DNA of 22,443 nucleotides, taken from positions 1-22,443 of the IMG/VR virus record IMGVR_UViG_3300018049_002704; one strand, 5' to 3'. Below are positions 3,932-20,632 of this stretch, piece after piece. Source of the stretch: a virus. Position 1 is the stretch's first letter. Each line of letters starts with the position of its first letter. The notes under the pieces are model-generated. The model was not told where the DNA came from and did no database searches. It worked only from the letters and a program-made list of their open reading frames with translations. A program made the translations under genes and the position numbers.

Positions 3932-4372
3932 ATGAACAAACATATTACTTGTAGTGGAGCACTATTCTACACTCTCCAGTCTAATCGTTTTTTATTTTTA
4001 CATAGAGCTAACGGCAAGCGTAGCAATATGTGGGGATTGGTCGGAGGCACTAATGAAGGTGCAGAAACACCCTGGGAGGGATTAAAAAGAGAAATTGAAG
4101 AAGAAATTGGATTTTTGCCTGATATCAAAAAAACTCTTCCGTTAGAAAGTTTTATAAGTGCAGACAGTAAATTTTATTTTCATACATACCTCTGCGTAGT
4201 ACAACAAGAATTTATTCCTCAACTCAATTCTGAACACGACGGTTATGCTTGGTGTTCATTTACAAAATGGCCTAAACCGTTACACCACGGATTACGCAAC
4301 ACACTTCAAAGTAAAATTAATTTATCTAAGTTAGAAACTGTTTTTCAAACTATTAATTTACTTGACACTTAA
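3932..4372 (+). CDS. Nudix hydrolase
   Basis: This 146-residue protein has a perfect Nudix box, G-x5-E-x7-REUxEExGU, at residues 39-61 (GTNEGAE, then REIEEEIGF), the Mg-binding catalytic helix that cleaves nucleoside diphosphates linked to another moiety. The order (strand with CSGALF, RSNMWGLVGG before the box) is the usual MutT-like layout and the length is typical. Substrate cannot be read. An in-frame TTG at 3899 lies inside gp15 and would add 11 residues unlike the family, so the ATG at 3932 is preferred, although no clear Shine-Dalgarno precedes it. It lies 8 bases after gp15, so it could be read from the late promoter. Its final codons contain the -35 element of the heptose-cassette promoter. 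Confidence 0.88.
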   Translation: MNKHITCSGALFYTLQSNRFLFLHRANGKRSNMWGLVGGTNEGAETPWEGLKREIEEEIGFLPDIKKTLPLESFISADSKFYFHTYLCVVQQEFIPQLNSEHDGYAWCSFTKWPKPLHHGLRNTLQSKINLSKLETVFQTINLLDT

Positions 4373-4396: not shown

Positions 4397-5536
4397 ATGA
4401 AAGTCTTAGTTATTGGCGACATAATTACTGATAGATATATTTACGGTACTTCAGAACGTCTAAGTCCCGAGGCACCTGTGCCTATTGTTAGACAAAAACG
4501 TATTGAAGAAACTGTAGGCGGAGCAGGATTAGTTTACGAAAACTTAAAAAGTTTAGGTGTAGATGTAGAACTTTATGATAGCGGCTGGCGCAGGAGTTTA
4601 AAAACTCGTGTAATTTGTGATGGACATTATGTTACACGCATAGACGATGACTTTATTGTTCCAGGTAACGAATTCCTAGACAATATAAAACTTGTTAACT
4701 TTAGCAAATACGATTATGTAATACTAAGTGATTATAATAAAGGTACATTAGACTATGCAATTGAGATCATTGCACACATTAACAAATTTAATTGTAAAGT
4801 TATTGTAGATCCTAAACGTCAAGCTAGACATTATGAGGGTGCTTGGTTAGTTAAACCTAATAGTTCTGAATTTGAAGGCTTAGGATTTACAAAATGGCTA
4901 GGTAATATTATAACTACAAATGCTGCTAATCCTGTAATAGCAGAAATTGACAAAGAATATTATACTGTATCAGTGGACCCTGTAGAAGTATCAGACGTAA
5001 CAGGAGCAGGCGACTGTTTTTTAGCAGGGTTTGTATATGGGTTATCTAGAGGATATAATTACAAAACTTGTTTAGAGATGGCAGTTAAAGGTTCTACAAA
5101 AAGTGTAAAGCATACTGGTACTTATATTCTTAAAGTAGAAGATTTAGAAGAACGTGTCATTTTTACAAATGGAGTGTTTGATATATTACACAAAGGACAT
5201 TTTGAATTATTAAATGAAGCACGTAGTTTAGGCGACAAATTAATTGTAGGTATTAACTCAGACGCTAGTGTAAAGAGATTAAAAGGCGAATTACGTCCAA
5301 TTAATGATGTTACAAGACGAATTGCACAGTTAGAAATGTTACCTTGGGTAGACGAGGTAGTTGTGTTTGAAGACGATACTCCATATAATTTAATTAAAAA
5401 AATAAAACCACACACTATAGTAAAAGGTGGTGATTATACTATAGATACAGTTGTAGGAAATGATTTAGCTAATGTACATTTAGTAAAAACTGTTGAAGGT
5501 TATTCTACAACTAGCATAATAGAGGCAGCATTATGA
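4397..5536 (+). CDS. hldE: HldE-like bifunctional heptose 7-phosphate kinase / heptose 1-phosphate adenylyltransferase
   Basis: The protein (379 residues) follows E. coli HldE (477) domain for domain. The N-terminal ribokinase-type kinase has GDIITDRYIYG, RLSPEAPVP, VGGAG, LSDYNKG, VDPK and the catalytic DVTGAGDCF near residue 200. The C-terminal nucleotidyltransferase, from about residue 252, has FTNGVFDILHKGH (HxGH), GINSDASVKRLKG, EDTP and VKGGDY, ending YSTTSIIEAAL like HldE. The kinase phosphorylates D-glycero-D-manno-heptose 7-phosphate at C1; after dephosphorylation the second domain attaches AMP to give ADP-heptose. The kinase is about 70 residues shorter than in E. coli, with losses in the sugar-lid region and before DVTGAGD, but the catalytic motifs remain. 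The start matches the family. The stop overlaps hldD by four bases (ATGA). Confidence 0.93.
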   Translation: MKVLVIGDIITDRYIYGTSERLSPEAPVPIVRQKRIEETVGGAGLVYENLKSLGVDVELYDSGWRRSLKTRVICDGHYVTRIDDDFIVPGNEFLDNIKLVNFSKYDYVILSDYNKGTLDYAIEIIAHINKFNCKVIVDPKRQARHYEGAWLVKPNSSEFEGLGFTKWLGNIITTNAANPVIAEIDKEYYTVSVDPVEVSDVTGAGDCFLAGFVYGLSRGYNYKTCLEMAVKGSTKSVKHTGTYILKVEDLEERVIFTNGVFDILHKGHFELLNEARSLGDKLIVGINSDASVKRLKGELRPINDVTRRIAQLEMLPWVDEVVVFEDDTPYNLIKKIKPHTIVKGGDYTIDTVVGNDLANVHLVKTVEGYSTTSIIEAAL

Positions 5537-6363
5537 AAATATTAGTAACAGGATACAAAGGGTTTATAGGTGCAAACATTGCACAATATTTACAAGCACA
5601 AGGCCACGAAGTAGAAGGATGGGACTATGTACCCAATGCTATTCCAGATCCAGAAGGCTATGACTGGGTAGTACACTTAGGTGCAAATAGTTCTACAACA
5701 GAAACAGATGTTGAGCTTATATTAGAACAAAATTTAGAAATGAGTACTAGACTTGTACAAGCTTGTGGTCATTTTGGTGTAAATTTACAATATGCATCTA
5801 GCGCAAGTGTGTATGGTAGCTGGAAACCTACACATTTTAAAGAAGATGGACCTCTCTTACCACAATCTCCATATGCTTGGAGTAAGTATTTGTTTGACAG
5901 GTTTGTAAATCAATATAAAGACGAATTTGATATTACAATACAAGGCTTCCGTTATTTTAATGTATACGGACAATACAATGAAGAACAAAAGGGTAATATG
6001 GCTAGTCCGTTTACTAAGTTTACAAAACAAGCAAAAGAAGAAGGTTACATTGAATTGTTTAAAGGTTCAGAAAACTATTTAAGAGATTTTATTTGTGTAG
6101 AAGATGTTTGTCGTGTACACGAAAAGATGTTTGACGTTAAAGAATCAGGTATTTGGAATGTAGGAACAGGTCGTGCAGTAAGTTTTAAAACTGTGGCAGA
6201 TTGTATATCAAGAAAATACGGATCAACAATTAGCTTTATTGAAATGCCAGAAAATTTAAAAGGACAATACCAAGAGTTTACTTGTGCAAACTTGACCAAG
6301 CTAAACAATACTATAGACATAGAATGGACAAAAATAGAGGATTATATAAATGCAGCGTCTTGA
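5533..6363 (+). CDS. hldD: HldD-like ADP-L-glycero-D-manno-heptose 6-epimerase
   Basis: This extended short-chain dehydrogenase/epimerase has an NAD(P)-binding GYKGFIG (residues 7-13), HLGANSSTTETD, SSASVYG (about 86-92) and the catalytic YxxxK (Y114, K118 in YAWSKYLFD). The family-specific stretches GFRYFNVYG, NMASPF, LFKGSENYLRDF, VEDV, GIWNVGTGRAVSF and LKGQYQEFT match E. coli HldD closely, so it is HldD-type rather than a generic GalE-type epimerase. It converts ADP-D-glycero- to ADP-L-glycero-D-manno-heptose, the last step before heptosyl transfer. At 276 residues it is about 30 shorter than E. coli HldD. An AGAGG ribosome-binding site lies inside the hldE end, and the gene overlaps the cupin start by 14 bases. 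Confidence 0.92.
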   Translation: MKILVTGYKGFIGANIAQYLQAQGHEVEGWDYVPNAIPDPEGYDWVVHLGANSSTTETDVELILEQNLEMSTRLVQACGHFGVNLQYASSASVYGSWKPTHFKEDGPLLPQSPYAWSKYLFDRFVNQYKDEFDITIQGFRYFNVYGQYNEEQKGNMASPFTKFTKQAKEEGYIELFKGSENYLRDFICVEDVCRVHEKMFDVKESGIWNVGTGRAVSFKTVADCISRKYGSTISFIEMPENLKGQYQEFTCANLTKLNNTIDIEWTKIEDYINAAS

Positions 6364-6751
6364 AGGATTTGTTAAAAAAGGTTGGGGCTACGAATTAATT
6401 TGGGCTACTAACGACAAATACTGCGGTAAAATTTTAGTATTTGAAAAAGCAGGAAATATGTTTAGTATGCATTTCCATAAAGAAAAAGATGAAACTTGGT
6501 TTGTAAATTCTGGTAAATTTAGAGTGCGCTGGATCGATACAACAAACGCTAAACTTCACGAAAAAGATTTAGGTGAAGGCGAAACCTGGCACAATCCTCC
6601 ATTGCAACCACATCAGATAATAGCACTTGTAGACGGTAGTAGTCTTACTGAAGTAAGTACAGCAGATAGTGTTGAAGACAACTATCGTGTTGCACCCGGA
6701 GACAGTCAAAGAGCACAAGAAGAATTAGAGAAAGACGAATCAAATGGCTGA
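6350..6751 (+). CDS. Cupin domain protein, sugar-phosphate isomerase-like
   Basis: This 133-residue single-domain cupin contains a perfect cupin motif 1, G-x5-HxH-x4-E-x6-G (metal ligands H41, H43, E48), and a second motif around HNPPLQPHQI supplying H88. KKGWGYELIW with KILVFEKAG near the N-terminus resembles the type II mannose-6-phosphate isomerase / AlgA cupin domain. It lies between hldD and gmhB with overlaps on both sides and an AGAGG ribosome-binding site, so it is translated with the cassette. Its reaction is unknown. Because the pathway isomerase GmhA is missing here, a role as a metal-dependent aldose-ketose isomerase is a reasonable guess, since cupin phosphoglucose isomerases exist in archaea. 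A regulatory or other sugar-modifying role is equally possible. Confidence 0.85.
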   Translation: MQRLEGFVKKGWGYELIWATNDKYCGKILVFEKAGNMFSMHFHKEKDETWFVNSGKFRVRWIDTTNAKLHEKDLGEGETWHNPPLQPHQIIALVDGSSLTEVSTADSVEDNYRVAPGDSQRAQEELEKDESNG

Positions 6752-7358
6752 AATTTATTGGGGTGATGAATCACAACAACCAAACTATATTGCACCTAAA
6801 TGTGTTGTAGGATTAGATCGTGATGGTGTTATAAACGTAGACATTGGCGACTATGTTTATAAAATAGAAGATTTTGAATTTGAAGAAGGAAGTCTAGAAG
6901 CAATAGTAAAACTTAGACGTTTAGGCCATAAGGTTGCTATTATAACAAATCAAGGCGGCATTGAAAAAGGTATATACACCCAAGACGATGTTGACACTAT
7001 ACATAATTATATGCTTGACGAATTTGGTAAGGCTGGATGTAGCAGTATTGATGGCTTATACTACAGTGCAAGTAGTGCCAAAAATGATATGTATGCAAAA
7101 CCAAATATAGGAATGTTTAAACGCTGTGAAAAAGAAGTTCCGCACGTAAAATTTTCTAAAGGATTTTACGTAGGCGATAGGATACGCGACTTAAAAGCAG
7201 CAATGAAAATAGGCGCAAGACCAATTCTAGTGCGTACTGGGCACGGTAAAGAAACAGAAGAATTAATTAACAAACGTTTTACATATCAAAAGATAAAAAA
7301 AGCGACAAAAGTTTTTGACAACCTAGCCGCTTTTGTTGATTATTTAGAAACGCTTTAA
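6744..7358 (+). CDS. gmhB: GmhB-like D-glycero-D-manno-heptose 1,7-bisphosphate 7-phosphatase
   Basis: This HAD-superfamily phosphatase of 204 residues carries motif I GLDRDGVIN (nucleophile D25, acid/base D27), motif II TNQGGI (from T68), the AKPNIGMF lysine motif and motif IV VGDRIRDL, followed by ILVRTGHG. These align with E. coli GmhB (FLDRDGTIN, TNQSGIARG, RKPHPGM, VGDKLEDM, VLVRTGK), which removes the C7 phosphate between the two HldE steps. The zinc-binding loop of E. coli GmhB (Cys-x-His ... Cys-x-Cys) is replaced by YYSASSAKNDMY with no Cys or His, so this is a zinc-less form. A related histidinol-phosphate phosphatase role is the main alternative; the neighbouring genes favour GmhB. 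The stop overlaps tail-to-tail with the stop of the gene on the opposite strand. Confidence 0.88.
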   Translation: MAEIYWGDESQQPNYIAPKCVVGLDRDGVINVDIGDYVYKIEDFEFEEGSLEAIVKLRRLGHKVAIITNQGGIEKGIYTQDDVDTIHNYMLDEFGKAGCSSIDGLYYSASSAKNDMYAKPNIGMFKRCEKEVPHVKFSKGFYVGDRIRDLKAAMKIGARPILVRTGHGKETEELINKRFTYQKIKKATKVFDNLAAFVDYLETL

Positions 7359-10300
7359 GCCTGCGCTTCACCCCATCTTAAAATTAAGTTAGCATCAATA
7401 GGGCTACCACTAACTTTATATACGTTAATTGCAAGCACATCAGGACCGTTTGGATATGTACCTCGGCCTCCTAATGGTGTGTTTGTTAATTCTTTCAATT
7501 CTGAAAAATCAACAGTTGCTCTTTCTCCTGGAGCAGCAATAAACGAAAATACTGTTTCCCCCGGTTCTGCATATTGTGCAGTACTTAGATTGAATACCGT
7601 ATTAGAACCTGATGAAATACTTTGTGTGGATGTAGCATTGTAAAATACTTCATAGAAGGTTGTCCCACCATAGGTAATTTCATTTATTTGAGAAATTCTT
7701 GTACCTGCTGGCCAACTAGTATCACTACTATCAACTTCTGTATTTAACCCTACTCCGGCTGCTTCAGCAGCTTGCCAACTTGTTTGAGTATATGGCAGGT
7801 TGTTTGTTTTACCATATGTGGATCCAGTTCTTGCTCTAGTCATTGTGACTGTTTGAGTACCGCTAACGTCATTGCCGCCGGGCCCATTATAATCATTACT
7901 GACAGTTATTCTTGCAAAATATTCAAAATTGCCATAGCTACTTAAACCATATTCATTATAATAACTTATACTTTGAATGGTTGTTCCTCCTGGAAAACTA
8001 CCAGTCGAAACGCCTGTAATAGTGTCACCAACATTGATATCGTTATTAAGAACGTCATTTGTAGTAATATAAAATCTGTCATTACCATCTTCTAATGTGT
8101 CTTGGTTGTTATTGCCTATTCTCTGTTGTAGATTAAATGTTCCACTTATTGCGCCTGCTACAACTGAATTACTATCAGTTACAACATTTGCCGTACCCCA
8201 GTTAATACCGCCGCCTGAAGCAATTTGTGCAAAACTTGGCTGTCCACCTTGTGCAAGTCCACTTAGTCCTGACCAGTTAACATCGGCCGGATTTTCAGGA
8301 TAGTTATTAGGATTAAGCACACCTTCAACAACAATGCCGCCCAATGCAATATAATCTGAAGTAACTTCTAAACTCTGTAACAGTAACTGGGCTCTGTTTA
8401 GTAGTTCACGCTCGCCTAAATCACCAACAAGAGCGTTTGATACTGAAGGTGACAGTCTAATCAAGAATGCTGTTTGTTTAGTTGTACTAACTTCGATTCC
8501 TGTTTCAGCGTATGAGAAAATGTAACCACGATCTTCGTCAAAACCACCGTCTGTTAGGAACGCAGAACCCCAGTGGCTAATTAATGGTGTAATAGTTTGT
8601 GAAATTAATATTACACCTGTTCTTGCTAGATGAGTTGCAGCAGCACCTGCTACATATTGTCTAGTTGCTCCTGCTTGGAAATTCTCAAATGTTGCACCTC
8701 TAATACAACCAGTTAATCGATTACTTGTATCATCTTTTCCGGTAAAGTCTATAATTTCATTATCTATATACACAGTTCCTGATTCAGGAAAGAAACTACT
8801 GTCAACTAATGGTATAAAGTTTTGATCAGAGGACATATCTGCTGCAAGTTTGCCGTTTGGTCCTTCGTTTGTAACTTCATAACGTACAGGCAAGTTACCT
8901 GAACGCATAAATGCTTCTGTGTTTACGTTTGAATTACGCATTCTGTGACAGAATACAAAATTACCATCTGAGCCACGTAACATAAAATCAATAAATCCAG
9001 CACCGTACCAACTGTATTGAATACCAATCATCTGCATCTTAGCAATATCAATATCGTATCCGCTTGGCCCTGTACCATCTAAACGATCTAGATTAAAATC
9101 ACGCTGTTTAACTTTTTTGTCTACAACAAGGTTAGCTTTAGTACCAGTAATATTAACAACGCCGCGCCAGTCCGGAGTAACAGTTAGTTCTGTTTGACTG
9201 TTTACGTGTGTAACAACGTGTGTCATACCTTTGATAATAATCCTATCCCCTGCATTTAACTGGTCACGGAATCTTGTGTTTGTACCTGTTACTAAGTTGT
9301 CATCTACTTGCATAGCAATAGTGCCTGCTAACTGACGTGTACCTGTACGCTGATTTACACTTACATTTGTGCCGTCGTATTCCCAGAAAATACCATTTTG
9401 ATCATCAAAGATACCCGAACGTACTGTAGCACCGTGCCAACTAACAACACTCATTTGGGCTCCAAAACCGAGCACCGCATTTGTTGAACCTAATCTACGT
9501 TGTGCTCTAATTTTAAACGTTCTTTCGTCAACAATTTCTGCAACTTCATAATCAAATCTTGGAGGAACTGCTGTTTCATTTCCGCTGTTATAACCTGGAG
9601 TTTCTACACCTAGTATTCTAATTATACCACCTTGTTGTACGCCGTGATCATTGTCATCAGTTACTACAGTAATTAATGATCCTACTTCAACGTCTTCTGC
9701 TGTTAAGCTACGCAAATCGTATGATGGTGCAAATAGCGCACCAGTAGTATACATAATACCTTTACCTGACTGGTAACGAATATACTTTTTACTTTGACGT
9801 ATTGCTTGCGCACCGTGTTGCGGGCCGCCTGTGCCTAACTGCACACCACCGTCATATGGTCTATGAATAAAGAATGAATCCGGTCTTGGATATACTGACC
9901 CTTCGATAGGTAGAGAATTAAGTGTTCCAGTGTCTATAGTTCCTTCTGCTCTTGCTTGGAATTCTAAAGTATCAATAGCAGGAATATTTGTTACAATATG
10001 TGATCCTGCCGCAAGATTGTGATTGTTTACGCCGTCATCTGATGTTATAGATGTAATAAAAGTATTTCCAGGAACAAGTCCGTGTGCATTTGGAAACTGT
10101 ACTTGTAAAGTAGCTAACGCACCATATGTAATAGCTGTTGCAGCAGGCATAGCAGCAGTTGATGCTTCAGACATAGTTATTGTTGATATTAAATCAAAAT
10201 AATTTCCGTATGCTGCTTCTTCATAACTTAACTGGGTGCTTGTAATTCCTCCAGAGGGATTTACATTTTGTACACGAATTATTAAATCATTTAATGGTGT

Positions 10301-13300
10301 TATTCCACCTAATTGACTACCAGGAATTACAATTCTATTACCAATTTCATAACCAGTACCGTTATTAGTAATCAAAAGATTGCTATACTGTGCATTGTCT
10401 CTTAAAATACTAAATTCTGCGTTAGATCCTGTATTAGGATCATTTACGCCTAACACGTCAATATAAATTCCGATTGGCTCGTAACCAGTACCACTAGTTG
10501 ATATTCCGGTTATATTTCCTGTAACTAAGCTATCAATACTAGTTACTGTAATTGTTACATCATTGGCTGGAGATTCTCCGCCAAATACTGTTCCTGCAAT
10601 AACTAACTCTTGTCCAACATTGTAGCCGCTTCCTGGAGTTTGTAAATCACCTACATACACTGCTGCGTTTTGACTTACATTAAATGTTGCTCCTGTACCT
10701 ATTATATGTATAGCTGCTTGTTCTACAGTTTCACCATTAAAAGGAGTTCCAGATACTGTAAAATTAGTAATAGATCCATTGCCATCAACGTTATCTATAA
10801 CAATAGTACAATCGTGAGTAGGTGAAAGGCCGCCTAAATCTGTGCCAGCTATTGTAAAATTTTCTGTTGCAAGATAGTTTACACCTGCATTTACAAATTC
10901 AGCTGAATATGTTGTACCGCTAGATGTAATATTAATTATTGCACTAGCACCAGATACAGACGTTGTAGTATATGTTACTCCGAAATATTCTCTAAAACTG
11001 TTAGGAGCAGTACCAGCAGTTGAAATTGAAGTAATGCCGCCATTTACATCTACTGCATCTACTGAAATATATAATGCTTGCACAGGGCTTGCTAAATCAG
11101 ATAAAATACTTCCATCTACTTTTAATAAATCACCGACTACATATCCTGTACCTGCTATTGCTACTGTTGTAGAAGTAAAGTTATTATTTTCAAAGCTTAT
11201 ATTAAAACTTGCGCCTTCGCCAGTGCCTCCTGAATACGTTGCAGTTAATCCTGTAATATATTGATCTGTATTAATATGTGTTCCGAAGATATCAGCAGAA
11301 GCAATAGAATTTGCGCTATCTAAAACATCTGTAACTATTATTAATGCATCGTGTTCGGGAGATGTTCCTCCTAAACTTGTGCCAGGAATAATAATTCTAT
11401 CACCTATTTCATATCCTTCGCCGCCGTCATTTGCAATAGCGTCTAATATATATGTAAAACTAGAATCCGAAGCAAATGATATATCAAATCTTGCATTTTC
11501 CCCAATTGAGTCGCCATTATTGCCTGTTAAATTTGTATACTGTGTTCTATTTCCTATTACAGGTTCTGTAAAAGGACTATTAAATGTAATAGTATTTCCT
11601 GCTATACTTTGAACATAGATTGCATATCCGTCGCCTCTATCAAATGCTAAATCTTCAACTATTCCAGTAACGTTTTGTACATCAACTTGAGAAGTACCTG
11701 CTTGCACATCACCTTCAGTTAAAGCAGTTAGATATAGGCCACCTCCTGCACTTTGATCAACAACACCAGTAACCTGAGAACCTAAAGGAATAGCACCATT
11801 TGCAGCTACAAGCGGAGCACCAATTGACGGCGCTTGATCGTCAAACGGAATAATAGTTGATCCTTGTAATACTGCTAGTTGGGTTACCATTGAACCTGCA
11901 GAGCCATTACTAACAACTTGTATATCAGGATTACCTATACTTGCTCCAGTATAAAATCCAGCTTGTCTTAGCTGAGTATAAGTTGTGCTTAAAACATCTC
12001 CGTTAGTTGTTCCAACCTTTGATTTTGCAAAATATTGAAACTGTGTTGGACTTACAATATTAACAATTACAAAAGATCCTTCAGCTCTTGCTGCACCAAC
12101 TACACTATCTTCTAGTGCTTTAATTGTAATTGGAGTTCCTACTCCAAAACCGTGAGCGCCATTTGTTGTCACAGTAATTAATGATTGGCCGACTCCGCCT
12201 GTGCCAGAAGAAGCATCTGTAGTTACAGTTACTACAGGAGTGTCTGTACCTGGTAATTCATAAATTGACGGATAACCTCTTAGAGTACCAATCGCCGCCC
12301 ATTTTGTAGGCTGTAACCCATACTCAAAGTCAGCGTCAAGCATTGATAATGGATTTGCAACACGATTACGTTCAATAGCATCAGTACCAAAATCATAAGG
12401 TCTAGTAGTTACAACACTTTTACCATTTTCTATTCGTTCAACAAAAATTTGTATTTCGTCGTCTGCACTGTGAGTAGATGTATCATAATTTAGTTCAATA
12501 GTTGTAACCGCATCAGTAGTTTGTAAATATGTGCCAAAATCACTATCAGTAGTTGAATCGTTAATTAATACTTTTGCACCAGTAGCAACGTTTGTAAAAT
12601 TATACATAACTTCGCTTCGTGTTGCATTTGATATAAGCAATAATTCGTCTGCATTATAACGCCCTTGTATTTTTACATAACCTAATCCAATTGGAACTAA
12701 AACAGGTTGTGCAGTTAATCCATTACTTATTACATCAACAGTATTAAATGCAAGAGTTTTAATTTTTGCAGGGGCGCCTGCGGTAATAGCATTTGTTGTT
12801 GCACTCACAAATGTGTGTGTACTTGTATCCGAACTTACACCTACATTAACTGTAATAGTAGTGCTTGTTGTACTAGTCACAGCAACAGGAGCATAATAAA
12901 ATTTGTCTTTGCCGTATTCATTAGGTACACCTGATCTTCGAGGATAAGGATGAAGTGTAGCATTTCCGTCTAAACCGCAAGTAAAAGTAAGTCCTGCTGG
13001 CGCAATTTGTATTTCGTCTCCAGTACTAATACTATGAGCACCTATTGTTAAAACCATTTCTCCTGTAGACGGGTTATAGTTTGCTCCTGAAGGTGTGTAA
13101 CTTAGTGCAGTAACAGTTTTTGTTGCGTCTATAGTTTGACTAACTTCAGTATTTAATGCAGAAAATGCACTGTTTGTAAATATATAATCTGTAATTAATC
13201 TTTGTATAAAATTATGTGCTGCAATTTCAGGTCCGCGATCTCCGTCGACCTGAGCTACTGTTTGATCCCAATAATACTTGATTACATTTCTAATAGATTG

Positions 13301-13879
13301 GTTGCCACCGTATCGCAAATCTTCTAAATATGCATCGATAACATATCCTACATCTCTTTCACACTTTGCTTGACTTGTATTTGTATAGTTATAAAAAGTA
13401 TCTGATACTGAGTTTGCTGTTGCACTTACAAATGTGTGTACACTTGTGTCAGAACTAATACCAATGTTAACAGTAATAGTAGTTGATGTAGTATTTAAAA
13501 TTTGTATAGCTTTATTATAATACGGATCGGTACCCGTATCATTAGGTACACCGCTTGCTCTTGGATATGCGTGTGTAGTTGCGTTACCGTCTAGCTCACA
13601 AGTAAACACTAGTCCTTCTTCAGCAATAGTGATTGCATCACCAACATTAAACGTATGAGAACCAATTGTAAGTACTAGCACTCCGGTTGTAGGAGTATAT
13701 GTTGCGTTTGTAGGAGTATATTGAGCAGCGTTACTTATTCTGCTAGTAATGTATGCATTAGCTTCTTTTTGTATAAATGTTTTGTTACTTTCTAATAGAC
13801 TATATGCATCAGGAAATCGATTTGATAGTGTTCCTAAGCCTGGTTTAAATACATAATTTTTTATTTGTGTTTTTGCCAT
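7355..13879 (-). CDS. Giant modular virion structural protein (tail fibre / baseplate-associated, 2174 aa)
   Basis: This is the largest gene in the window and is rich in Thr, Ser, Gly, Asn and Ile, as expected of beta-structured tail fibres. An N-terminal anchor-like segment (residues 1-53) is followed by a roughly 107-residue module present twice (about 54-160 and 261-366), separated by a helical segment with CERDVGYVIDAYLEDLRYGG. Residues about 796-1240 hold five diverged repeats of about 88 residues around a GTGYxxGD..xIxGTxLGG..P core. A conserved-looking region follows (FIHRPYDGGVQLGTGGPQHG near residues 1325-1345), then a long C-terminal part ending in DANLILRWGEAQA. Related large proteins occur in marine T4-like phages as virion structural proteins, but I cannot assign a T4 gene number. 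It starts three bases after the 295-residue gene ends and closes the late operon. No terminator separates it from gmhB. Confidence 0.88.
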   Translation of the reverse strand: MAKTQIKNYVFKPGLGTLSNRFPDAYSLLESNKTFIQKEANAYITSRISNAAQYTPTNATYTPTTGVLVLTIGSHTFNVGDAITIAEEGLVFTCELDGNATTHAYPRASGVPNDTGTDPYYNKAIQILNTTSTTITVNIGISSDTSVHTFVSATANSVSDTFYNYTNTSQAKCERDVGYVIDAYLEDLRYGGNQSIRNVIKYYWDQTVAQVDGDRGPEIAAHNFIQRLITDYIFTNSAFSALNTEVSQTIDATKTVTALSYTPSGANYNPSTGEMVLTIGAHSISTGDEIQIAPAGLTFTCGLDGNATLHPYPRRSGVPNEYGKDKFYYAPVAVTSTTSTTITVNVGVSSDTSTHTFVSATTNAITAGAPAKIKTLAFNTVDVISNGLTAQPVLVPIGLGYVKIQGRYNADELLLISNATRSEVMYNFTNVATGAKVLINDSTTDSDFGTYLQTTDAVTTIELNYDTSTHSADDEIQIFVERIENGKSVVTTRPYDFGTDAIERNRVANPLSMLDADFEYGLQPTKWAAIGTLRGYPSIYELPGTDTPVVTVTTDASSGTGGVGQSLITVTTNGAHGFGVGTPITIKALEDSVVGAARAEGSFVIVNIVSPTQFQYFAKSKVGTTNGDVLSTTYTQLRQAGFYTGASIGNPDIQVVSNGSAGSMVTQLAVLQGSTIIPFDDQAPSIGAPLVAANGAIPLGSQVTGVVDQSAGGGLYLTALTEGDVQAGTSQVDVQNVTGIVEDLAFDRGDGYAIYVQSIAGNTITFNSPFTEPVIGNRTQYTNLTGNNGDSIGENARFDISFASDSSFTYILDAIANDGGEGYEIGDRIIIPGTSLGGTSPEHDALIIVTDVLDSANSIASADIFGTHINTDQYITGLTATYSGGTGEGASFNISFENNNFTSTTVAIAGTGYVVGDLLKVDGSILSDLASPVQALYISVDAVDVNGGITSISTAGTAPNSFREYFGVTYTTTSVSGASAIINITSSGTTYSAEFVNAGVNYLATENFTIAGTDLGGLSPTHDCTIVIDNVDGNGSITNFTVSGTPFNGETVEQAAIHIIGTGATFNVSQNAAVYVGDLQTPGSGYNVGQELVIAGTVFGGESPANDVTITVTSIDSLVTGNITGISTSGTGYEPIGIYIDVLGVNDPNTGSNAEFSILRDNAQYSNLLITNNGTGYEIGNRIVIPGSQLGGITPLNDLIIRVQNVNPSGGITSTQLSYEEAAYGNYFDLISTITMSEASTAAMPAATAITYGALATLQVQFPNAHGLVPGNTFITSITSDDGVNNHNLAAGSHIVTNIPAIDTLEFQARAEGTIDTGTLNSLPIEGSVYPRPDSFFIHRPYDGGVQLGTGGPQHGAQAIRQSKKYIRYQSGKGIMYTTGALFAPSYDLRSLTAEDVEVGSLITVVTDDNDHGVQQGGIIRILGVETPGYNSGNETAVPPRFDYEVAEIVDERTFKIRAQRRLGSTNAVLGFGAQMSVVSWHGATVRSGIFDDQNGIFWEYDGTNVSVNQRTGTRQLAGTIAMQVDDNLVTGTNTRFRDQLNAGDRIIIKGMTHVVTHVNSQTELTVTPDWRGVVNITGTKANLVVDKKVKQRDFNLDRLDGTGPSGYDIDIAKMQMIGIQYSWYGAGFIDFMLRGSDGNFVFCHRMRNSNVNTEAFMRSGNLPVRYEVTNEGPNGKLAADMSSDQNFIPLVDSSFFPESGTVYIDNEIIDFTGKDDTSNRLTGCIRGATFENFQAGATRQYVAGAAATHLARTGVILISQTITPLISHWGSAFLTDGGFDEDRGYIFSYAETGIEVSTTKQTAFLIRLSPSVSNALVGDLGERELLNRAQLLLQSLEVTSDYIALGGIVVEGVLNPNNYPENPADVNWSGLSGLAQGGQPSFAQIASGGGINWGTANVVTDSNSVVAGAISGTFNLQQRIGNNNQDTLEDGNDRFYITTNDVLNNDINVGDTITGVSTGSFPGGTTIQSISYYNEYGLSSYGNFEYFARITVSNDYNGPGGNDVSGTQTVTMTRARTGSTYGKTNNLPYTQTSWQAAEAAGVGLNTEVDSSDTSWPAGTRISQINEITYGGTTFYEVFYNATSTQSISSGSNTVFNLSTAQYAEPGETVFSFIAAPGERATVDFSELKELTNTPLGGRGTYPNGPDVLAINVYKVSGSPIDANLILRWGEAQA
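10158..11494 (-). repeat. Five tandem beta-repeats (about 88 aa / 265 bp) inside the giant structural gene
   Basis: Five consecutive units share a pattern: a short (A)xFxIS strand, a G-x-GYxxGDxLxI(P/A)G turn, an LGGxSPxxD segment, then a (T)IxVxxVDxxGxIT strand. The cores lie near 11390, 11120, 10860, 10600 and 10330, a regular spacing near 265 bp. The first, fourth and fifth keep the consensus best; the second and third are most diverged. The units probably form a beta-rod or stacked domains. Confidence 0.75.
12782..13720 (-). repeat. Duplicated 107-residue module near the N-terminus of the giant structural gene
   Basis: Copy one (13403-13720) and copy two (12782-13099) both run from YTP...YxPxTG through LTIG.H....GD.I.IA..GL.FTC.LDGNAT.H.YPR.SGVPN to TTSTTITVN.G.SSDTS.HTFVSAT. 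The DNA is also visibly similar. About 300 bp of unrelated, more helical coding sequence separates the copies. Confidence 0.85.
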
Positions 13880-13882
13880 TAT

Positions 13883-14770
13883 TTACAATCCAAATGCTAT
13901 AGATAGTGCTAACGCAGTACTATCTGTATATTGTTTATTCGACACATCGGTATCCTGTGTTGGTAACGTATTAACTTGCGCAGTAGAAAATTCTGCGGTA
14001 GCAGGAGTAATATTACCAATTACTGTATTATTTATAGTACTGTTGATTATTGTTGATGATAAACCCGAATCACTTATAGTTGTAATTTTACTTCCGTCAA
14101 TCTTTAACTGTATTTCGTTAACAGCTTCTAATTCTAAATTATTTCCTGAAAATAGATTTGATATGCCTGTGCCACCAACATTAAGAGTTCCGCCAACAAA
14201 TATGTCTTTTTCTACACCTATGCCGCCTGCAACAGTTAAAGCACCTGTAGTTGGTGATATTGATTCGATAGTATCATTTATAGTTACAGAGGAAAATTGT
14301 CCTACTGGATCAATTATATTAATTTGTCCAAATACATTTCCTGCTGTATCGCCATAATATAAAATATCTGGAGCAGTTAGAGAAACAGAAAATCTAAGGG
14401 TGCCGTCATCTTTACCTTGCGCATCTACTCCTGACGAACCATCTGAGTGTGTTATACCGTTATTATAAGTATCTGCGCCCTGTACATTGTTTGTGTAAAT
14501 ATAAAATCTTAGTGTAGGAACTTGTAAGTCAAACACATATGTTCTCTGTCTTGCAAGAGTTAAAGTTGGATTAGCACCGGATCCAGCTTGTGCAATGTTG
14601 TAAGCATTTTGTGATTCTATTACTACAAAGTCAAATGTATTTGCAACTTCATCATCGGGAGTAGTTGCAGTAATGATAGAATTAGCAACAATGTTTCCTT
14701 GATCGTCAACTGAGAACCCAGGACCTTTGAAACCAAATTTTGATACAAATGGTGCATTTGCTACTGCCAT
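13883..14770 (-). CDS. Virion structural protein, tail-fibre-like (295 aa)
   Basis: This beta-rich protein starts MAVANAPFVSKFGFKGPGF and has three recognisable parts. Residues about 60-160 contain RTYVFDL...LRFYIYT and a GITHSDGSSG..QGKDDGTLRFSV segment ending in LYYGD, similar to jelly-roll or cupredoxin-like domains common in marine T4-like structural proteins. A TTGALTVAGGIGVEKDIFVGGTLNVGGTG stretch (shown here only as its motif) is typical of repetitive phage fibre shafts. The C-terminus, LPTQDTDVSNKQYTDS, resembles fibre trimerisation or end segments. The gene lies between the 139-residue gene and the giant protein, with its own GATAAATA late promoter and a TAGGAG ribosome-binding site. 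A fibre or baseplate component is likely; the exact T4 equivalent is unknown. Confidence 0.8.
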   Translation of the reverse strand: MAVANAPFVSKFGFKGPGFSVDDQGNIVANSIITATTPDDEVANTFDFVVIESQNAYNIAQAGSGANPTLTLARQRTYVFDLQVPTLRFYIYTNNVQGADTYNNGITHSDGSSGVDAQGKDDGTLRFSVSLTAPDILYYGDTAGNVFGQINIIDPVGQFSSVTINDTIESISPTTGALTVAGGIGVEKDIFVGGTLNVGGTGISNLFSGNNLELEAVNEIQLKIDGSKITTISDSGLSSTIINSTINNTVIGNITPATAEFSTAQVNTLPTQDTDVSNKQYTDSTALALSIAFGL

Positions 14771-14788
14771 AATTCTACTCCTATATGT

Positions 14789-14796
14789 TATTTATC
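14789..14796 (-). promoter_or_regulatory. Late promoter octamer (GATAAATA) for the 295-aa structural gene
   Basis: The minus strand reads CTGATAAATAAC. Predicted initiation near 14783 gives a 13-base leader beginning TAGGAG, so the ribosome-binding site sits at the very 5' end. The TGA inside the motif (14795-14797) is the stop codon of the upstream 139-residue gene. Confidence 0.6.
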
Positions 14797-15214
14797 AGAC
14801 TACAGGAGGGTTAAGTGTATGAAAGTATTGTCCGGTATATATAACCTTTGCACCAGTGAAGTTTTGTTGGGCTTCTGCATTTATTATAGGTGTAACACTC
14901 AAGTCTACATAACTATCATTTACTGTTACACTTATATCTATAATGTCAGTTAACGTACTATTTCTCGAGAACACTACAACACTGGCACGATCTTTTGTAG
15001 CAGTTACAAGAGCTTTTATAATTTCTTTATTAGACATATCATAATCAGCACTTATAGTATATTCTACTGTTGAAAAATCGCCTATATGCCATCTATCTAA
15101 TAGAGTAGTACCTATTACTTGTTTCCAAGGACCGCTATGACTTACGCCAGAATTATTTTTAAACAATATTGTATTTTTTAATCCCTGAGTCAAGTAATTT
15201 TTTAAATTTTGCAT
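14795..15214 (-). CDS. Small protein of unknown function in the late structural operon (139 aa)
   Basis: I do not recognise this protein. It begins MQNLKNYLTQGLKNTILFKN with a short amphipathic helix, then has alternating beta and helical segments, including a KDRASVVVFSRNSTL stretch and a VDLSVTPI strand, and ends HTLNPPVV. It has no cysteine, no signal peptide and no membrane segment. It lies between the carbamoyltransferase and the 295-residue structural protein, with its own GATAAATA late promoter and an AGGGG ribosome-binding site, so a small virion or assembly protein is the likeliest role. That rests on position only. Confidence 0.72.
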   Translation of the reverse strand: MQNLKNYLTQGLKNTILFKNNSGVSHSGPWKQVIGTTLLDRWHIGDFSTVEYTISADYDMSNKEIIKALVTATKDRASVVVFSRNSTLTDIIDISVTVNDSYVDLSVTPIINAEAQQNFTGAKVIYTGQYFHTLNPPVV

Positions 15215-15235
15215 TTTATACCCCTGCTAATAAAA

Positions 15236-15243
15236 TATTTATC
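15236..15243 (-). promoter_or_regulatory. Late promoter octamer (GATAAATA) for the 139-aa gene
   Basis: The minus strand again reads CTGATAAATA, and its TGA (15242-15244) is the stop codon of the upstream carbamoyltransferase. Predicted initiation near 15230 leaves a 16-base leader containing AGGGG. The arrangement repeats that at 14789-14797. Confidence 0.6.
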
Positions 15244-17035
15244 AGTTTTTTAAGGTAATTAATTTTCCATATTCTGGCAAGTACAAATATTCAATTTCAC
15301 TGTTGGCAAGAGTTCTTACAGCATCGTCTAGTGTTTCTACTAATGGTTCACCACCTAAATTAAAACTTGTATTAAAAATTATAGGACATCCTGTCTTGTC
15401 TTTGAATGCTTTAATAATATCATAATAATGTGGATTTTGTTCTCTACTAACAGTTTGTATGCGACAAGTTCCATCTACGTGAATAATAGCAGGAATTTTC
15501 TCTTCGACACCCGGATGACAGTTTACAGCATACATCATTGTAGGAGAACTTTCCATACCGCGCAAATCAAACCATTCGTGTGCATCCTCTTCTAATATTG
15601 AACCTGCAAATGGACGGAAGTATTCTCTATGTTTAACATTATTAACGTGATCTTTTCCATTAGGATCGGTAGGATCATAAAGAATACTTCTGTTACCTAA
15701 TGCACGAGGTCCGTTTTCAGATCTGCCTTGAAACAGTGTTACAATATTTCTGCCGGTAATTAACTCAACAATATCTTGATGTGTTGCATCTTGTATTTGT
15801 GCATTATATTTTTCAGCTGTTTCATTAATTTCAGAATTATCAAAAATATATTCTGGTCCTAAATAAACATCATTTTGTCTGGTACGTATATTGGAATCGT
15901 TTGTAATACTATGATACCAAAACAGGGCGGCGCCCATAGCTGTTCCTGCATCATTAGAAACAGGTTCAACGTATAAATTAATACCTTCGTCTTCAAGTTC
16001 TTTTAGGTAAAAATAATTAGCAACACAGTTTAAACCGTATCCGCCTGATATAACTACATTTTTATTTCCTGTTTTATTAACTGCATATCTAATCAAGTCA
16101 GCTACAGCTTGTTGGGTTTCGGTCTGTACTGCATATGCTAAGTCTCTTCTATTTTCTAAAAGTGTTACATCGTCATTATTGTGGTCATTTAAAAAATTAT
16201 AAGAACAATAGTTTACAATAGCACCATTTGGATATCTTGGTATAATCATATTTCTATTGGTAGTTGGCAATGGAAAATCATTATCTTCAAATAATTTGGC
16301 AAATTTATCATTTGGTTTGCCATACGGAAATAGTCCCATCGTTTTACCTGCTTCAATAGAACTCCAACCGCAGTATTCTGTTACTGCTTCGTATGCTTTT
16401 ACTATACCTGCTCTATCGTGTATTAAAACATCATATACTGCATCTTGTTCCCAATCTGCTGCATCGAAATCTTTCATAAACATATTTTGTATTATGCTTC
16501 TTGCACCTAGTGTTTTGTGTATAGTTTTTATGTTTGCTGGATAATTACATTCGAAAATACTTTCAGTTTCCCATACAGTCATTTGTTCTTCAGGTGTTGC
16601 TGTAGGAAGAAATGTTCCTGCACCATCTACAATTACTGCTGTTGCATTTTCAAAACCTGAACGATAAAATGCCATTGCGGCGTGCATTTTATGATGAAGC
16701 ATAGCAACATCAACAACTTGTGATCTTCCATCGGATTGCATTCTAGAATTTATTAATCCAAGTTTTCTTGCTAATCCTGTATAAACATCTTCGCCAGTAT
16801 AATCAAGCTTGCCTGCTGTGCCTTCTAGCCCTGTAGTATGTGCAATTACTAGATAATCTAATTTATCTGTATACTCTTTAATCTTTAACATCGATGCAAG
16901 AGGTCCTCCATCATACTTTTGACGGGTTAATCTTTCTTCTTCTATACTAAAGATTATTTCGCCATCTTTCATTAAGCACACACCTGCATTGTGTCCTCTA
17001 GCTATTCCAGCAATCCATAATGGCTTTTTGCTCAT
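15242..17035 (-). CDS. NodU/TobZ-family O-carbamoyltransferase
   Basis: This 597-residue protein is a full-length member of the family. The N-terminal Kae1-like part has GIARGHNAGVCLMKDG, IEEERLTRQK, the metal-binding HHKMH (residues 114-118), VIVDGAGT, ISGGYGLNCVAN and EPVSNDAGTAMGAA. The C-terminal YrdC-like part has GPRALGNRSILYDP, YFRPFAGSI and PIIFNTSFNLGGEPLVET. These enzymes make carbamoyl-AMP from carbamoyl phosphate and ATP and transfer the carbamoyl group to a hydroxyl, usually on a sugar. The gene lies directly after the SGNH gene and the heptosyltransferase-like gene, suggesting that the acceptor is a glycan. A carbamoylated heptose occurs in Pseudomonas aeruginosa LPS core, attributed to WapO of this family, which fits the heptose genes in the window. 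All key motifs look intact. Confidence 0.93.
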   Translation of the reverse strand: MSKKPLWIAGIARGHNAGVCLMKDGEIIFSIEEERLTRQKYDGGPLASMLKIKEYTDKLDYLVIAHTTGLEGTAGKLDYTGEDVYTGLARKLGLINSRMQSDGRSQVVDVAMLHHKMHAAMAFYRSGFENATAVIVDGAGTFLPTATPEEQMTVWETESIFECNYPANIKTIHKTLGARSIIQNMFMKDFDAADWEQDAVYDVLIHDRAGIVKAYEAVTEYCGWSSIEAGKTMGLFPYGKPNDKFAKLFEDNDFPLPTTNRNMIIPRYPNGAIVNYCSYNFLNDHNNDDVTLLENRRDLAYAVQTETQQAVADLIRYAVNKTGNKNVVISGGYGLNCVANYFYLKELEDEGINLYVEPVSNDAGTAMGAALFWYHSITNDSNIRTRQNDVYLGPEYIFDNSEINETAEKYNAQIQDATHQDIVELITGRNIVTLFQGRSENGPRALGNRSILYDPTDPNGKDHVNNVKHREYFRPFAGSILEEDAHEWFDLRGMESSPTMMYAVNCHPGVEEKIPAIIHVDGTCRIQTVSREQNPHYYDIIKAFKDKTGCPIIFNTSFNLGGEPLVETLDDAVRTLANSEIEYLYLPEYGKLITLKN

Positions 17036-17037
17036 AA

Positions 17038-17898
17038 TTAAAATCCTCTATAAAAACTTTGAAAGTTTGGAAGCATTCTATAACACGCTTCTCCAAACGT
17101 TTCTATTTCTGTTGTCTGTGTTCGTAACTCGTTTGTAATATCTATCCATTTTTTTGCAGTTGGATGCAAAATCTGACTTATTCCTAATTTATCTTTAAGT
17201 ATGTCATTCATCCAAGATAAATGTAAAAACACACTAGGGTGAGGGTCTAACCAAGGTTTTTCATCAACTTTACTATCATACCAATGATACATATCATCCT
17301 TGTTATTCCAGGTATATAGACCTATAGGTTGTGTCCATTTTTCTGTATTAAGATATTGTTTATAACAATCAAAATCAGAATATTTTTCAAATAAATTTAC
17401 TTTATTTCTTTTTTCATTATATCCTGCTGCTTCTAAAAAGTCACTTCCTAAGTTTTCTATATTACCTATAGTTGTCATTGCATAATTACAGCCTATCTTA
17501 TCTAATATTTCGGTTGCTGTTGCAATTGCATTTAGCATATGCATTGTATAAGATTTTTCATCAAAGAATTCCATTACCCATTTTTTATCATACTTTTCTG
17601 TATTAATGTAATTAAAAATACTTCCTTTAGTTTTCCAACCTGTTGCATCATCACGAGGAGGATATCTAAATGTATGGTAATCATTACGGATATGACTAGT
17701 CCATTGTATAATTACAATGTCATCTTTTGTAAAATGATTTTTAGCGTGACATTCGATTAATCGTTCTACAATTGCTCTGTTGCCTAATCCAGCCCAGCCC
17801 CAGTTTTCATAGATTTCAAATTCTAAGCCTAAAAAATCTGCCCACGTCGGCCAAGAATATTTTGTAAAAGAACATCCAAATGTAAACAGTCTTGTCAT
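17038..17898 (-). CDS. SGNH/GDSL-type hydrolase or O-acyltransferase-like protein
   Basis: This 286-residue protein begins MTRLFTFGCSFTKYSW, where FGCSFT is a block I motif with the presumed nucleophilic serine. A WAGLGNRAI segment (block II glycine), an IQWTSHIRND stretch in the block III position and a late DPHPSVFLHLSW, giving the D-x-x-H dyad of block V, complete the expected order. There is no signal peptide, so it acts in the cytoplasm or on the virion. SGNH enzymes remove or transfer acyl groups, often on sugars. The substrate is not readable; the glycosyltransferase on one side and the carbamoyltransferase on the other argue for glycan trimming or acylation. Gaps to both neighbours are one or two bases, so the three genes form one translational unit. 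Confidence 0.78.
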   Translation of the reverse strand: MTRLFTFGCSFTKYSWPTWADFLGLEFEIYENWGWAGLGNRAIVERLIECHAKNHFTKDDIVIIQWTSHIRNDYHTFRYPPRDDATGWKTKGSIFNYINTEKYDKKWVMEFFDEKSYTMHMLNAIATATEILDKIGCNYAMTTIGNIENLGSDFLEAAGYNEKRNKVNLFEKYSDFDCYKQYLNTEKWTQPIGLYTWNNKDDMYHWYDSKVDEKPWLDPHPSVFLHLSWMNDILKDKLGISQILHPTAKKWIDITNELRTQTTEIETFGEACYRMLPNFQSFYRGF

Positions 17899-17899
17899 T

Positions 17900-18853
17900 T
17901 TATTTTTTCTTTTTAAGACTTTTAGATACCTCTTCGATTATTACTTCTTCTATTTTATCGTTCATATGCATAATACCTTCATTTCGTCTGTCGGTAAATT
18001 CATCTATAGTAATTCTAATAGGACTATACCTTTTTACTCCCTCACCCATATCTAGAGTTTTAAATGTATCACTATCAGGATATGAAACATTTTCAACAAA
18101 CGTACTGCCTAATACTACTGTAGAAGGCACATCAAAACTATACGATATGTGTTGTCCTACACTATCACACCCTAAGAAGTGATCACATAAATTTATAATT
18201 GCAGACCATTCACGCAATCCAATTCCTTGTGGAATTGCAACAGGATCGGTAATACCGTGTTTTTGAAATTCTATTGCAATTTCTCCCATAAAAATCACAG
18301 CGTATTTTTTTGATAATTTTTTTACAATATTAACTACACTTTCAGGTTCAAAGCTTCTTCCTCCAAAATCTGTAATCATACCTTTTTCTTCTATTGTACC
18401 TCGTCCAAAAGGTTGAAATACTATCACTTGATCTTTTTTTGTTTTTTCTTTAACGTCGTTGATTACATTTTTTGCAACCATAAGTTCTTGTTTGCTAAGA
18501 CGTATTAATGGTTTTTGTAAATCTCTTACACCTTTGTTGTTTATTTCAATATCATATGCTTGAGATAAACTACATTTTTGGTTGTAATATTCCCACACTC
18601 TATATGGTTCAGGACTATGTAGAGTCATATGCTTTAGTTTATCTTCAAACAAATTTTTATGCCAGACATCATATGCCTTTTCGTGCAAGAACGGATGGCC
18701 TTTATAAAAATCAGTTCCGCCCTCACAAACAATAATAAAATTGTCGTCAGGATTTTCTTCTTTATATTTTTCTAGTGCAGGTATTGAACAAATAACTCTG
18801 CCGGCGCCTCCATTAATAAAAAAGGCGGAATCTCGTTTGTTTTCGTTAGACAT
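17900..18853 (-). CDS. GT9-like glycosyltransferase, ADP-heptosyltransferase type
   Basis: This 317-residue protein looks like a divergent GT-B enzyme of family GT9. The N-terminus has GGAGRVICSIPALEKYKEENPD, placed as the family's glycine loop and P-AL..L...P segment. The middle has VIVFQPFGRG. The C-terminal nucleotide-sugar site has FLGCDSVGQHISYSFDVPS followed by VVLGSTF, equivalent to the GT9 D..x.HxA.A...P.V.LFG signature. GT9 enzymes include WaaC/WaaF, which transfer L-glycero-D-manno-heptose from ADP-heptose, the product made by the cassette at 4397-7358. The gene heads the late operon behind a perfect TATAAATA promoter. The protein ends in KKKK. The acceptor is unknown: host LPS core or a virion protein. 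GT9 assignment is fairly secure; donor specificity is inferred. Confidence 0.78.
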   Translation of the reverse strand: MSNENKRDSAFFINGGAGRVICSIPALEKYKEENPDDNFIIVCEGGTDFYKGHPFLHEKAYDVWHKNLFEDKLKHMTLHSPEPYRVWEYYNQKCSLSQAYDIEINNKGVRDLQKPLIRLSKQELMVAKNVINDVKEKTKKDQVIVFQPFGRGTIEEKGMITDFGGRSFEPESVVNIVKKLSKKYAVIFMGEIAIEFQKHGITDPVAIPQGIGLREWSAIINLCDHFLGCDSVGQHISYSFDVPSTVVLGSTFVENVSYPDSDTFKTLDMGEGVKRYSPIRITIDEFTDRRNEGIMHMNDKIEEVIIEEVSKSLKKKK

Positions 18854-20622: not shown

Positions 20623-20632
20623 ATCTTATCCT

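Follow-up and report, generated by a model that had tools for sequence, protein, structure and literature searches.

Heptose synthesis genes, a GT9-fold glycosyltransferase and a carbamoyltransferase beside adhesin genes in an uncultured phage: a possible system for glycosylation of the phage's own adhesins

What use would a phage have for genes that make ADP-heptose, together with genes that transfer and carbamoylate a sugar, and on which molecule would that sugar be placed? This question is raised by a virus record of 22,443 bases (IMG/VR record IMGVR_UViG_3300018049_002704; the whole stretch is called the window below), which contains an HldE/HldD/GmhB-like cassette and a second cassette consisting of genes for a glycosyltransferase (GT), an SGNH-like protein and a NodU-type carbamoyltransferase (CT). 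The initial annotation of this DNA proposed that the phage makes heptose, transfers it and carbamoylates it, either on its own fibres or on host lipopolysaccharide (LPS). Our analysis led us to a two-part protein-glycosylation system acting on the phage's own adhesins, to which we assign a probability of roughly 0.5. The gene families, the fold of the GT and the gene linkage agree with the proposal; the donor sugar, the acceptor, the site of carbamoylation, the product and the benefit are what we infer from them. Every gene named in the initial annotation is an intact open frame at the position given to it, although a cupin gene within the first cassette had gone unmentioned. The genes concerned are the following.

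4397-5536, plus strand: HldE-like bifunctional kinase/adenylyltransferase (NF008454 8e-83, rfaE domain II 4e-48, phrog_8133, phrog_7878)
5533-6363, plus strand: HldD-like ADP-heptose 6-epimerase (TIGR02197 9e-70)
6350-6751, plus strand: cupin of phrog_7851, candidate sugar-phosphate isomerase, metal-ligand pattern HxH(x4)E...H
6744-7358, plus strand: GmhB-like phosphatase of the HAD type, lacking the Cys zinc loop (PRK08942 2e-39)
15242-17035, minus strand: NodU/TobZ-type O-carbamoyltransferase (Carbam_trans_C 1e-60, phrog_1601 8e-168)
17038-17898, minus strand: putative SGNH-like protein, motifs GCS, GxGN and DxHPS
17900-18853, minus strand: GT9-fold glycosyltransferase by predicted fold, putative heptosyltransferase (phrog_8954, function unknown, 2e-146)
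18953-19843, minus strand: phrog_9740 protein adjoining the GT (family relatives: tail-fibre assembly)
19858-20622, minus strand: Cys/Gly-rich adhesin-like protein of phrog_4205, putative acceptor (31 Cys in 254 aa)
20633-21403, minus strand: Cys/Gly-rich adhesin-like protein of phrog_4205, putative acceptor (24 Cys in 256 aa)
21408-22064, minus strand: phrog_9740 protein (weaker matches to tail-fibre assembly families)
22076-22441, minus strand: Cys/Gly-rich adhesin-like protein, the third, truncated at the end of the window

The GT and the CT were found to track one Cys/Gly-rich adhesin-like family. The window proteins of this family (19858-21403) are fast evolving and contain 9-12% Cys and 18-24% Gly; the means over 72 representative adhesin-like proteins were 9.7% and 19.3%. 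Their gene place, and the phrog_9740 relatives named as tail-fibre assembly proteins, suggest that they are adhesins. Linkage was counted in the best 80 loci of 460 stretches of viral contigs that encode a GT relative (loci bear L numbers below). The CT lay within 2.5 kb of the GT in 79 of the 80 loci, the exception (L012) being cut. A phrog_4205-type or short phrog_9740-type gene was located at most 4.5 kb from the GT in 74 loci, and the remaining six (L017, L038, L043, L062, L082 and L087) have no more than 2.9 kb left on the adhesin side. This strict count leaves out a large fibre gene, with which it becomes 79/80; the Cys/Gly-rich gene itself was present in 72/80. In 17 of the 74 loci the GT did not share the strand of the closest adhesin gene, yet there too it lay beside the array. 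Scanning from the adhesin side with profile A2 gave 78 new loci, many of them on contigs already in the GT set. The GT was detected by profile in 70 of these, and its start was read from the sequence at the contig end of L275, after a 2OG-Fe(II) dioxygenase-like frame, which gives 71/78. The seven other loci end early: in four the sequence continues for at most 83 bases past the final adhesin gene, and in three for 544-604 bases that are taken up by the same dioxygenase-like frame.

The same linkage was observed in phage records. Searching 50,697 of them with the S-SSM7 adhesin resulted in 21 matches, of which 20 occurred with the GT; the remaining one is on a contig whose label assigns it to a single cell (AG-345-E02) that has the GT on a different contig. 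Adhesin and GT were both present in five and both absent in eleven of 16 named phages. The independently defined family phrog_4205 was detected in 5 of 18 named phages, the same five that gave a GT profile match (16 were searched with the GT profile). The 23 phage records with a close GT (at least 39% identity) were the same 23 accessions that topped the CT list (44-62% identity, with 98-99% of the query covered); among the matches listed (60 of 143 rows), S-RIM44 came next (41.1% over 76%) and the others were lower. With the window's own adhesin as query we retrieved only a near-identical contig among viral contigs and one weak match among phages. We found no title or abstract in the open-licence literature describing a link between GT, CT and adhesin. 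The dioxygenase-like frame stands between adhesins and GT at the contig ends of L254, L257, L261 and L275 and at L008:8345-8977, where the frame, in Sf-FS3, is annotated as prolyl 4-hydroxylase; it is possible that hydroxylation precedes glycosylation.

The GT is clearly predicted to have the GT-B fold of the GT9 heptosyltransferase type. Its AlphaFold model (pLDDT 89.4, pTM 0.89) matched 3tov (GT9) with Z 23.9 over 282 residues (3.3 A). Among characterised enzymes WaaF was the top match (Z 21.7, 273 residues, 3.6 A), and WaaC (Z 19.5, 251 residues, 3.4 A) and TibC (Z 19.3, 270 residues, 3.4 A) were also matched; plant NDH-complex chains gave Z 18-19 and the first other fold 12.7. The invariant blocks in 55 aligned members are NGGxGR, EPYR, YxNQ and DSxxQH, and the GT has a DSxGxH stretch that we take to be GT9-like. 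The family was seen nearly always in viruses, with its 460 stretches in viral contigs. A bacterial home was sought by scanning 84,980 species genomes with two patterns, each a short peptide, and the seven loci returned were all on contigs of metagenome-assembled genomes (MAGs) and all in phage gene order. Two contigs titled Neomarinimicrobiota MAG (L172, PBPT01000016.1, 335 kb, and L174, PBPT01000082.1, 153 kb) show the phage gene order of this locus and are probably misbinned phages. The CT is flanked by two GT copies in one lineage (L079, L080, L081 and L089).

The CT contains the N- and C-terminal carbamoyltransferase domains, with HHxxH and GPRALGNR, and thereby shares both domains and the conserved blocks with the NodU/TobZ carbamoyltransferases, among which the initial annotation had named WapO. 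The SGNH-like protein keeps the motifs on which its name was based (C9 S10, G39 N40 and H220 are invariant in profile A5), but no profile recognises it: there was no Pfam match up to E 10 and no PDB profile match better than E 0.9. Its family was present in 47 of the 80 GT loci, so the gene is optional.

The proteins of the synthesis cassette carry the catalytic motifs of their families, with the GmhB zinc loop as a difference. Both the PfkB kinase (GAGD) and the nucleotidyltransferase (HxGH) are present in HldE, where G203/D206 of the first and D262, H265 and H268 of the second are invariant in 37/37 representatives. The kinase domain is compact (about 250 aa) and carries NIITT or a closely similar stretch in 36 of the 37 (GNIITTNA in the window); the longer-type protein of L079 has IITDGAKG there. 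The best PDB match of HldD was 1eq2 (HldD, 4e-42), with the YxxxK and KGxMAS stretches aligned; the Tyr and Lys of short-chain dehydrogenases (SDR) are accompanied by the second HldD Lys, presumably K178 in E. coli (Y114 in 56/56 rows, K118 in 55, K153 in 54). GmhB shows the HAD motifs DxDG, K and GD (GLDRDG, AKP and GDRIRD in the window), and its first Asp is kept in 30 of 33 rows. The zinc loop is absent (YYSASS...YAKP in the window versus YYCPHH...CDCRKP in 3l8e), and none of the 33 rows has a Cys in that stretch. GmhB-like proteins encoded near the CT at L071:12936-13592, L072:12903-13574 and L076:4973-5626 have Ala, Thr or Ser for the nucleophile Asp and Phe or Leu for the motif Lys, and are possibly pseudo-enzymes with a new role or decaying. 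Whole records of L071 and L072 gave no HldE match (that of L076 was not searched whole); since two of these three loci thus lie in HldE-less records, the pattern suggests that GmhB decays once HldE is gone.

The cupin has a metal site (H41, H43, E48 and H88) kept in 90% or more of the sequences. Its Pfam matches, all sub-threshold, included mannose-6-phosphate isomerase (0.019, window) and D-lyxose isomerase (0.003-0.03, 4/4 cupins tested), and the window cupin also had sub-threshold matches to non-isomerase cupins and NCBIfam matches to oxalate decarboxylase and WbuC cupins. Two-domain oxalate decarboxylases led the PDB profile matches (4.9e-7), and the D-lyxose isomerase 2y0o (5.7e-5 over positions 17-109) was the best after these and the two-domain SLL1358. 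Fold scores were tied and did not discriminate (CapF 15.4, quercetinase 14.6, phosphomannose isomerase 13.9, lyxose isomerase 13.4). Distribution was informative: cupin and HldE-C occurred together in 90 of 172 sequences, HldE-C alone in 18 and the cupin alone in two (L011 and L070), and in the whole records of both these loci HldE was found elsewhere. HldE-C was present in 9 of the 18 named phages and a strong cupin in the same nine, with an additional weak one in S-SCSM1 (E 1e-8). The GT is absent from four of the nine. HldE therefore tracks the cupin and not the GT, and because the cupin follows HldE-C even in the four phages without GT, it belongs with sugar-nucleotide synthesis.

A search for GmhA (TIGR00441) gave no match in any of the 18 phage records, which leaves the ADP-heptose pathway incomplete on that step and weighs against the proposed system; as controls, the model matched in E. 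coli and not in Synechococcus elongatus. The step could be supplied by the host or by the cupin. GmhA, phosphomannose isomerase and lyxose isomerase catalyse the same ketose-aldose chemistry, and for this reason we propose that the cupin may replace GmhA. The P-SSM2 protein annotated as 'phosphoheptose isomerase' (L002:13113-13457), which occupies the place of GmhB in its cluster, was rejected as a GmhA: it has 114 aa, reads DIDGTICT and resembles a small HAD phosphatase, with weak Pfam matches to LNS2 (0.025), HAD_PNKP (0.079) and Hydrolase_3 (0.14), so that the label is likely a misannotation. In P-TIM68, a phage without this GT, a transketolase-like gene (L006:8847-9992) lies immediately before the HldE cluster, and its product might feed sedoheptulose 7-phosphate.

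Do the two cassettes form one system? In P-SSM2, S-CAM1, S-SSM7 and Sf-FS3 the genes for GT, CT, HldE-C, HldE-N, a HAD-like protein, cupin and HldD form one cluster, with extra genes in between in S-SSM7 and Sf-FS3. HldE was detected in all 23 phage records with a close GT (in one by a fragment), each of which also has a CT of at least 44% identity. Conversely, the GT was present in 24 of 33 HldE-bearing viral records examined, and the sequences of the remaining nine stop 0.1-7.3 kb past HldE; the GT of the window lies 12.4 kb after HldE. These results support the earlier view that the cassettes belong together. Co-occurrence in relatives had been named beforehand as a test of that view, and it was found to be frequent, but either cassette also occurs alone. 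HldE-C without this GT was seen in four named phages (S-T4, P-TIM68, Sf-CH8 and S-SM2) and, in the other direction, HldE was absent from 22 of 46 GT records (one of the 24 HldE matches being a fragment), chosen from 81 mainly for length. Strict dependence of one cassette on the other was therefore rejected, and the free occurrence of either cassette in related phages, which the initial annotation had named as a refutation, was in part observed. Nine of the 22 HldE-less records were counted as longer than 80 kb (223, 185, 176, 165, 111, 109, 96, 83 and 80 kb, the last listed as 80), and in several the slot after the Nudix gene is visibly empty of HldE. HldD was searched in 17 GT records (16 HldE-less ones and L042, which has HldE) and matched in two, L042 and L071. 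Mapping the absence of HldE (17 rows, of which L034, L038 and L043 were not searched whole) onto the GT tree requires eight changes.

A simple account of this pattern would be that hosts able to make ADP-heptose supply the donor, and that the phage supplies it in other hosts. Vibrio and Aeromonas make heptose, and the distant GT homologues of Vibrio phage K479 (25% identity) and Aeromonas phage HJ05 (24%) occur without an HldE-C match. Sf-FS3, whose host is given as Synechococcus WH8102, carries the whole gene set. Marine Synechococcus WH8102 is described in an excerpt of PMC4515613 as having LPS with neither heptose nor Kdo, and CC9311 as having LPS without heptose.

In the mechanism that we favour, the phage would make ADP-heptose where its host does not, and the GT9-fold enzyme, from its place inside the adhesin operon, would transfer heptose, during their synthesis, to the receptor-binding adhesins rich in Cys and Gly, or else to the phrog_9740 proteins that accompany them. 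The NodU-type enzyme would O-carbamoylate this sugar, which may also be acylated or trimmed by the SGNH-like protein; with such a decoration the tail tip would be altered in receptor binding, stability or shielding. Of the two acceptors considered at the outset, the linkage favours adhesins over host LPS because GT and CT follow one adhesin-like family, stay adjacent to it when inverted and in some phages adjoin dioxygenases. These dioxygenases are annotated as, or resemble, prolyl hydroxylases, as might be expected of neighbours that modify protein. The K479 homologue also lies between virion genes. A more far-reaching version, which we put forward tentatively and consider unlikely as a whole, is a self-sufficient viral protein heptosylation shared by cyanophages and jumbo phages: the cupin, as an isomerase of the lyxose/phosphomannose kind, would stand in for GmhA and convert sedoheptulose 7-phosphate to D-manno-heptose 7-phosphate (C1/C2 chemistry), HldE, GmhB and HldD would yield ADP-heptose, the phage-only GT9-fold family, having lost the usual catalytic Asp, would decorate the Cys/Gly-rich adhesins, perhaps via Cys sulphur, a carbamoyl cap would follow, and phages of heptose-making hosts would keep the transfer half.

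Several observations weigh against adhesin heptosylation. The GT9 label agrees with the fold of the predicted model, but sequence profiles gave it no support: the GT had no Pfam or NCBIfam match up to 1e-3, and its profile A1 matched none of the solved GT9 chains up to E 10. R19, the Arg of NGGxGR, is invariant (55/55) and was kept in both distant homologues examined, K479 and HJ05. It would stand at the place of the WaaC catalytic Asp, which we take to be position 13 (D13); model residues 7-317 align to WaaC 1-324, so that 19 should meet 13 in an alignment known by its end points only. With an invariant Arg probably standing where WaaC has its catalytic Asp, the catalytic base would differ from that of the usual GT9 enzymes and the mechanism would have to differ as well. 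On the synthesis side, HldE scored below the NCBIfam equivalog cut-off (278.6/521 bits; domain I 166/345, domain II 162.8/181.5), as did HldD for TIGR02197 (235/274.6) and GmhB (135/178); only the general domain models TIGR00125 and TIGR01662 exceeded their cut-offs, the function-specific ones did not, and the identity of the sugar is thus suggested by families whose members here score below curated cut-offs. The HldE-less GT records, which reach 223 kb, count on the same side, and no GT column separated HldE-bearing from HldE-less phages at the thresholds used (32 versus 9 rows, with L054 counted as HldE-bearing by a near twin only); both findings also fit a donor unrelated to HldE. As for the acceptor, phrog_4205 is absent from K479 and HJ05, profile A2 derives from loci that contain the GT and could miss adhesin classes without GT, and the loci counted are not independent, many being the same contigs or close kin. 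Sharing an operon need not mean acting on its products.

The carbamoylated heptose could instead be placed on host LPS or another envelope glycan and block competing phages by superinfection exclusion, an alternative that we consider unlikely. Such a role, surface modification against competing phages, has been published for the glycosyltransferase and rfaE genes that marine T4-like phages carry in their host-recognition region, and genes of this sort have been read as O-chain synthesis (excerpt of PMC7029224). WaaF being the best fold match among characterised enzymes agrees with it, as do the HldE genes that lie near other glycosyltransferases, without this GT, in S-T4, P-TIM68 and Sf-CH8, and four genes of the cyanophage cluster (T4-GC 304, 305, 307 and 308) are given as LPS genes in an excerpt of PMC3037559. 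However, the GT follows the adhesin and not HldE, the Synechococcus LPS described above is heptose-free, and an enzyme that alters the host surface would presumably have no need of a constant position among the genes of a virion operon. That the cassettes are separate, with the product of HldE, HldD, GmhB and cupin used elsewhere and the GT and CT served by, for example, a host ADP- or UDP-sugar, seems to us quite doubtful. The occurrence of each cassette alone speaks for it, together with the missing GmhA, the GmhB without zinc loop and the compact kinase domain; against it stand the HldE records, in which GT was found or the sequence is cut short, the single cluster of the four cyanophages, and the lost GmhB nucleophile in HldE-less records. 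Carbamoyltransferases and glycosyltransferases of other phages modify DNA, and heptose and carbamoyl on phage DNA bases would be a further outcome, though a very improbable one. The S-RIM44 CT overlaps a thymidylate synthase annotation, and the window frame at 1-483 matches deoxynucleoside monophosphate kinase (5e-9) and, more weakly, thymidylate synthase (3e-7) families; yet this GT and the adhesin are both missing from S-RIM44, we recognised no enzyme for base hydroxymethylation in the window, and the linkage of the GT is to adhesins.

Glycosylation of the phage's own adhesins can be set beside several known systems. The cyanophage 'LPS gene' cluster of P-SSM2 and S-SSM7 (T4-GC 302-308) consists of the same gene families; in an excerpt of PMC3037559, from 2010, GC 304, 305, 307 and 308 are reported as co-occurring and the cluster is interpreted as a set of LPS genes whose use is unclear, possibly stuffer DNA. 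GC 302, the GT, is labelled 'hypothetical' in the record. The window differs in that the genes fall into two separate cassettes, HldE is a fusion that begins with the kinase, and the position of the small cyanophage HAD-like gene is taken by GmhB. TibC, a precedent for action of this fold on adhesins, heptosylates adhesin proteins from ADP-heptose and takes the D,D form (excerpt of PMC4358343), whereas the window has HldD. The TibC/AAH autotransporter heptosyltransferases (BAHT) share the fold of the GT, which differs in having no sequence match and an Arg that should fall on the WaaC Asp position, and their acceptors are of another kind than the phage Cys/Gly-rich proteins. With WaaC and WaaF the fold is shared over 251-273 residues at 13-14% identity. 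Glycans are placed on capsid and tail-tube subunits of mycobacteriophages (Freeman 2023, as cited in an excerpt of PMC12619734); the likeness is one of virion-protein glycosylation, with adhesins as the proposed target here.

The genes seen in the initial annotation are thus confirmed and its interpretation is supported in part. We regard this as a real and widespread system, previously half-described, with the weight of evidence on adhesin modification. It ties GT and CT to one adhesin-like family across Prochlorococcus phages and uncultured jumbo-type phages, offers a reason for heptose genes in phages of heptose-less hosts, and predicts heptose and carbamoyl on tail-tip adhesins, which can be tested in cultured phages. 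If true, the receptor-binding proteins of some ocean phages would be glycoproteins, which bears on host-range prediction from sequence, and the cupin would represent a new solution for the absent step of the pathway.

The plus-strand genes HldE, HldD, cupin and GmhB (4397-7358) converge on a minus-strand virion operon that is read from right to left. The initial annotation placed the GT cassette at the head of this operon; it is located in the middle, since the adhesin-like genes (22441-18953) come first, followed by GT, SGNH-like gene, CT and the last three genes listed here.

Left part, minus strand: gp13-like gene, first in the gene order
Left part, plus strand: virion protein in the gp14 place, then gp15
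3932-4372, plus strand: Nudix gene, directly after gp15
14795-15214, minus strand: small protein
13883-14770, minus strand: smaller gene, between 14795-15214 and the gene of the 2174-aa virion protein
7355-13879, minus strand: 2174-aa virion protein, operon end

In related records the Nudix gene follows gp15 whether HldE is present or not, and some PA5oct-like phages show the same arrangement; the gene was dropped as a part of the system on this ground. The nearest named phages by gp15, among the matches listed (15/148 records), are the jumbo phages Phosso, PA5oct, SCTP-2 and Atu_ph07 (31-34%), which sets the window phage apart from the cyanophages. The small protein of 14795-15214 stands beside the GT-CT cassette in many jumbo-type loci.

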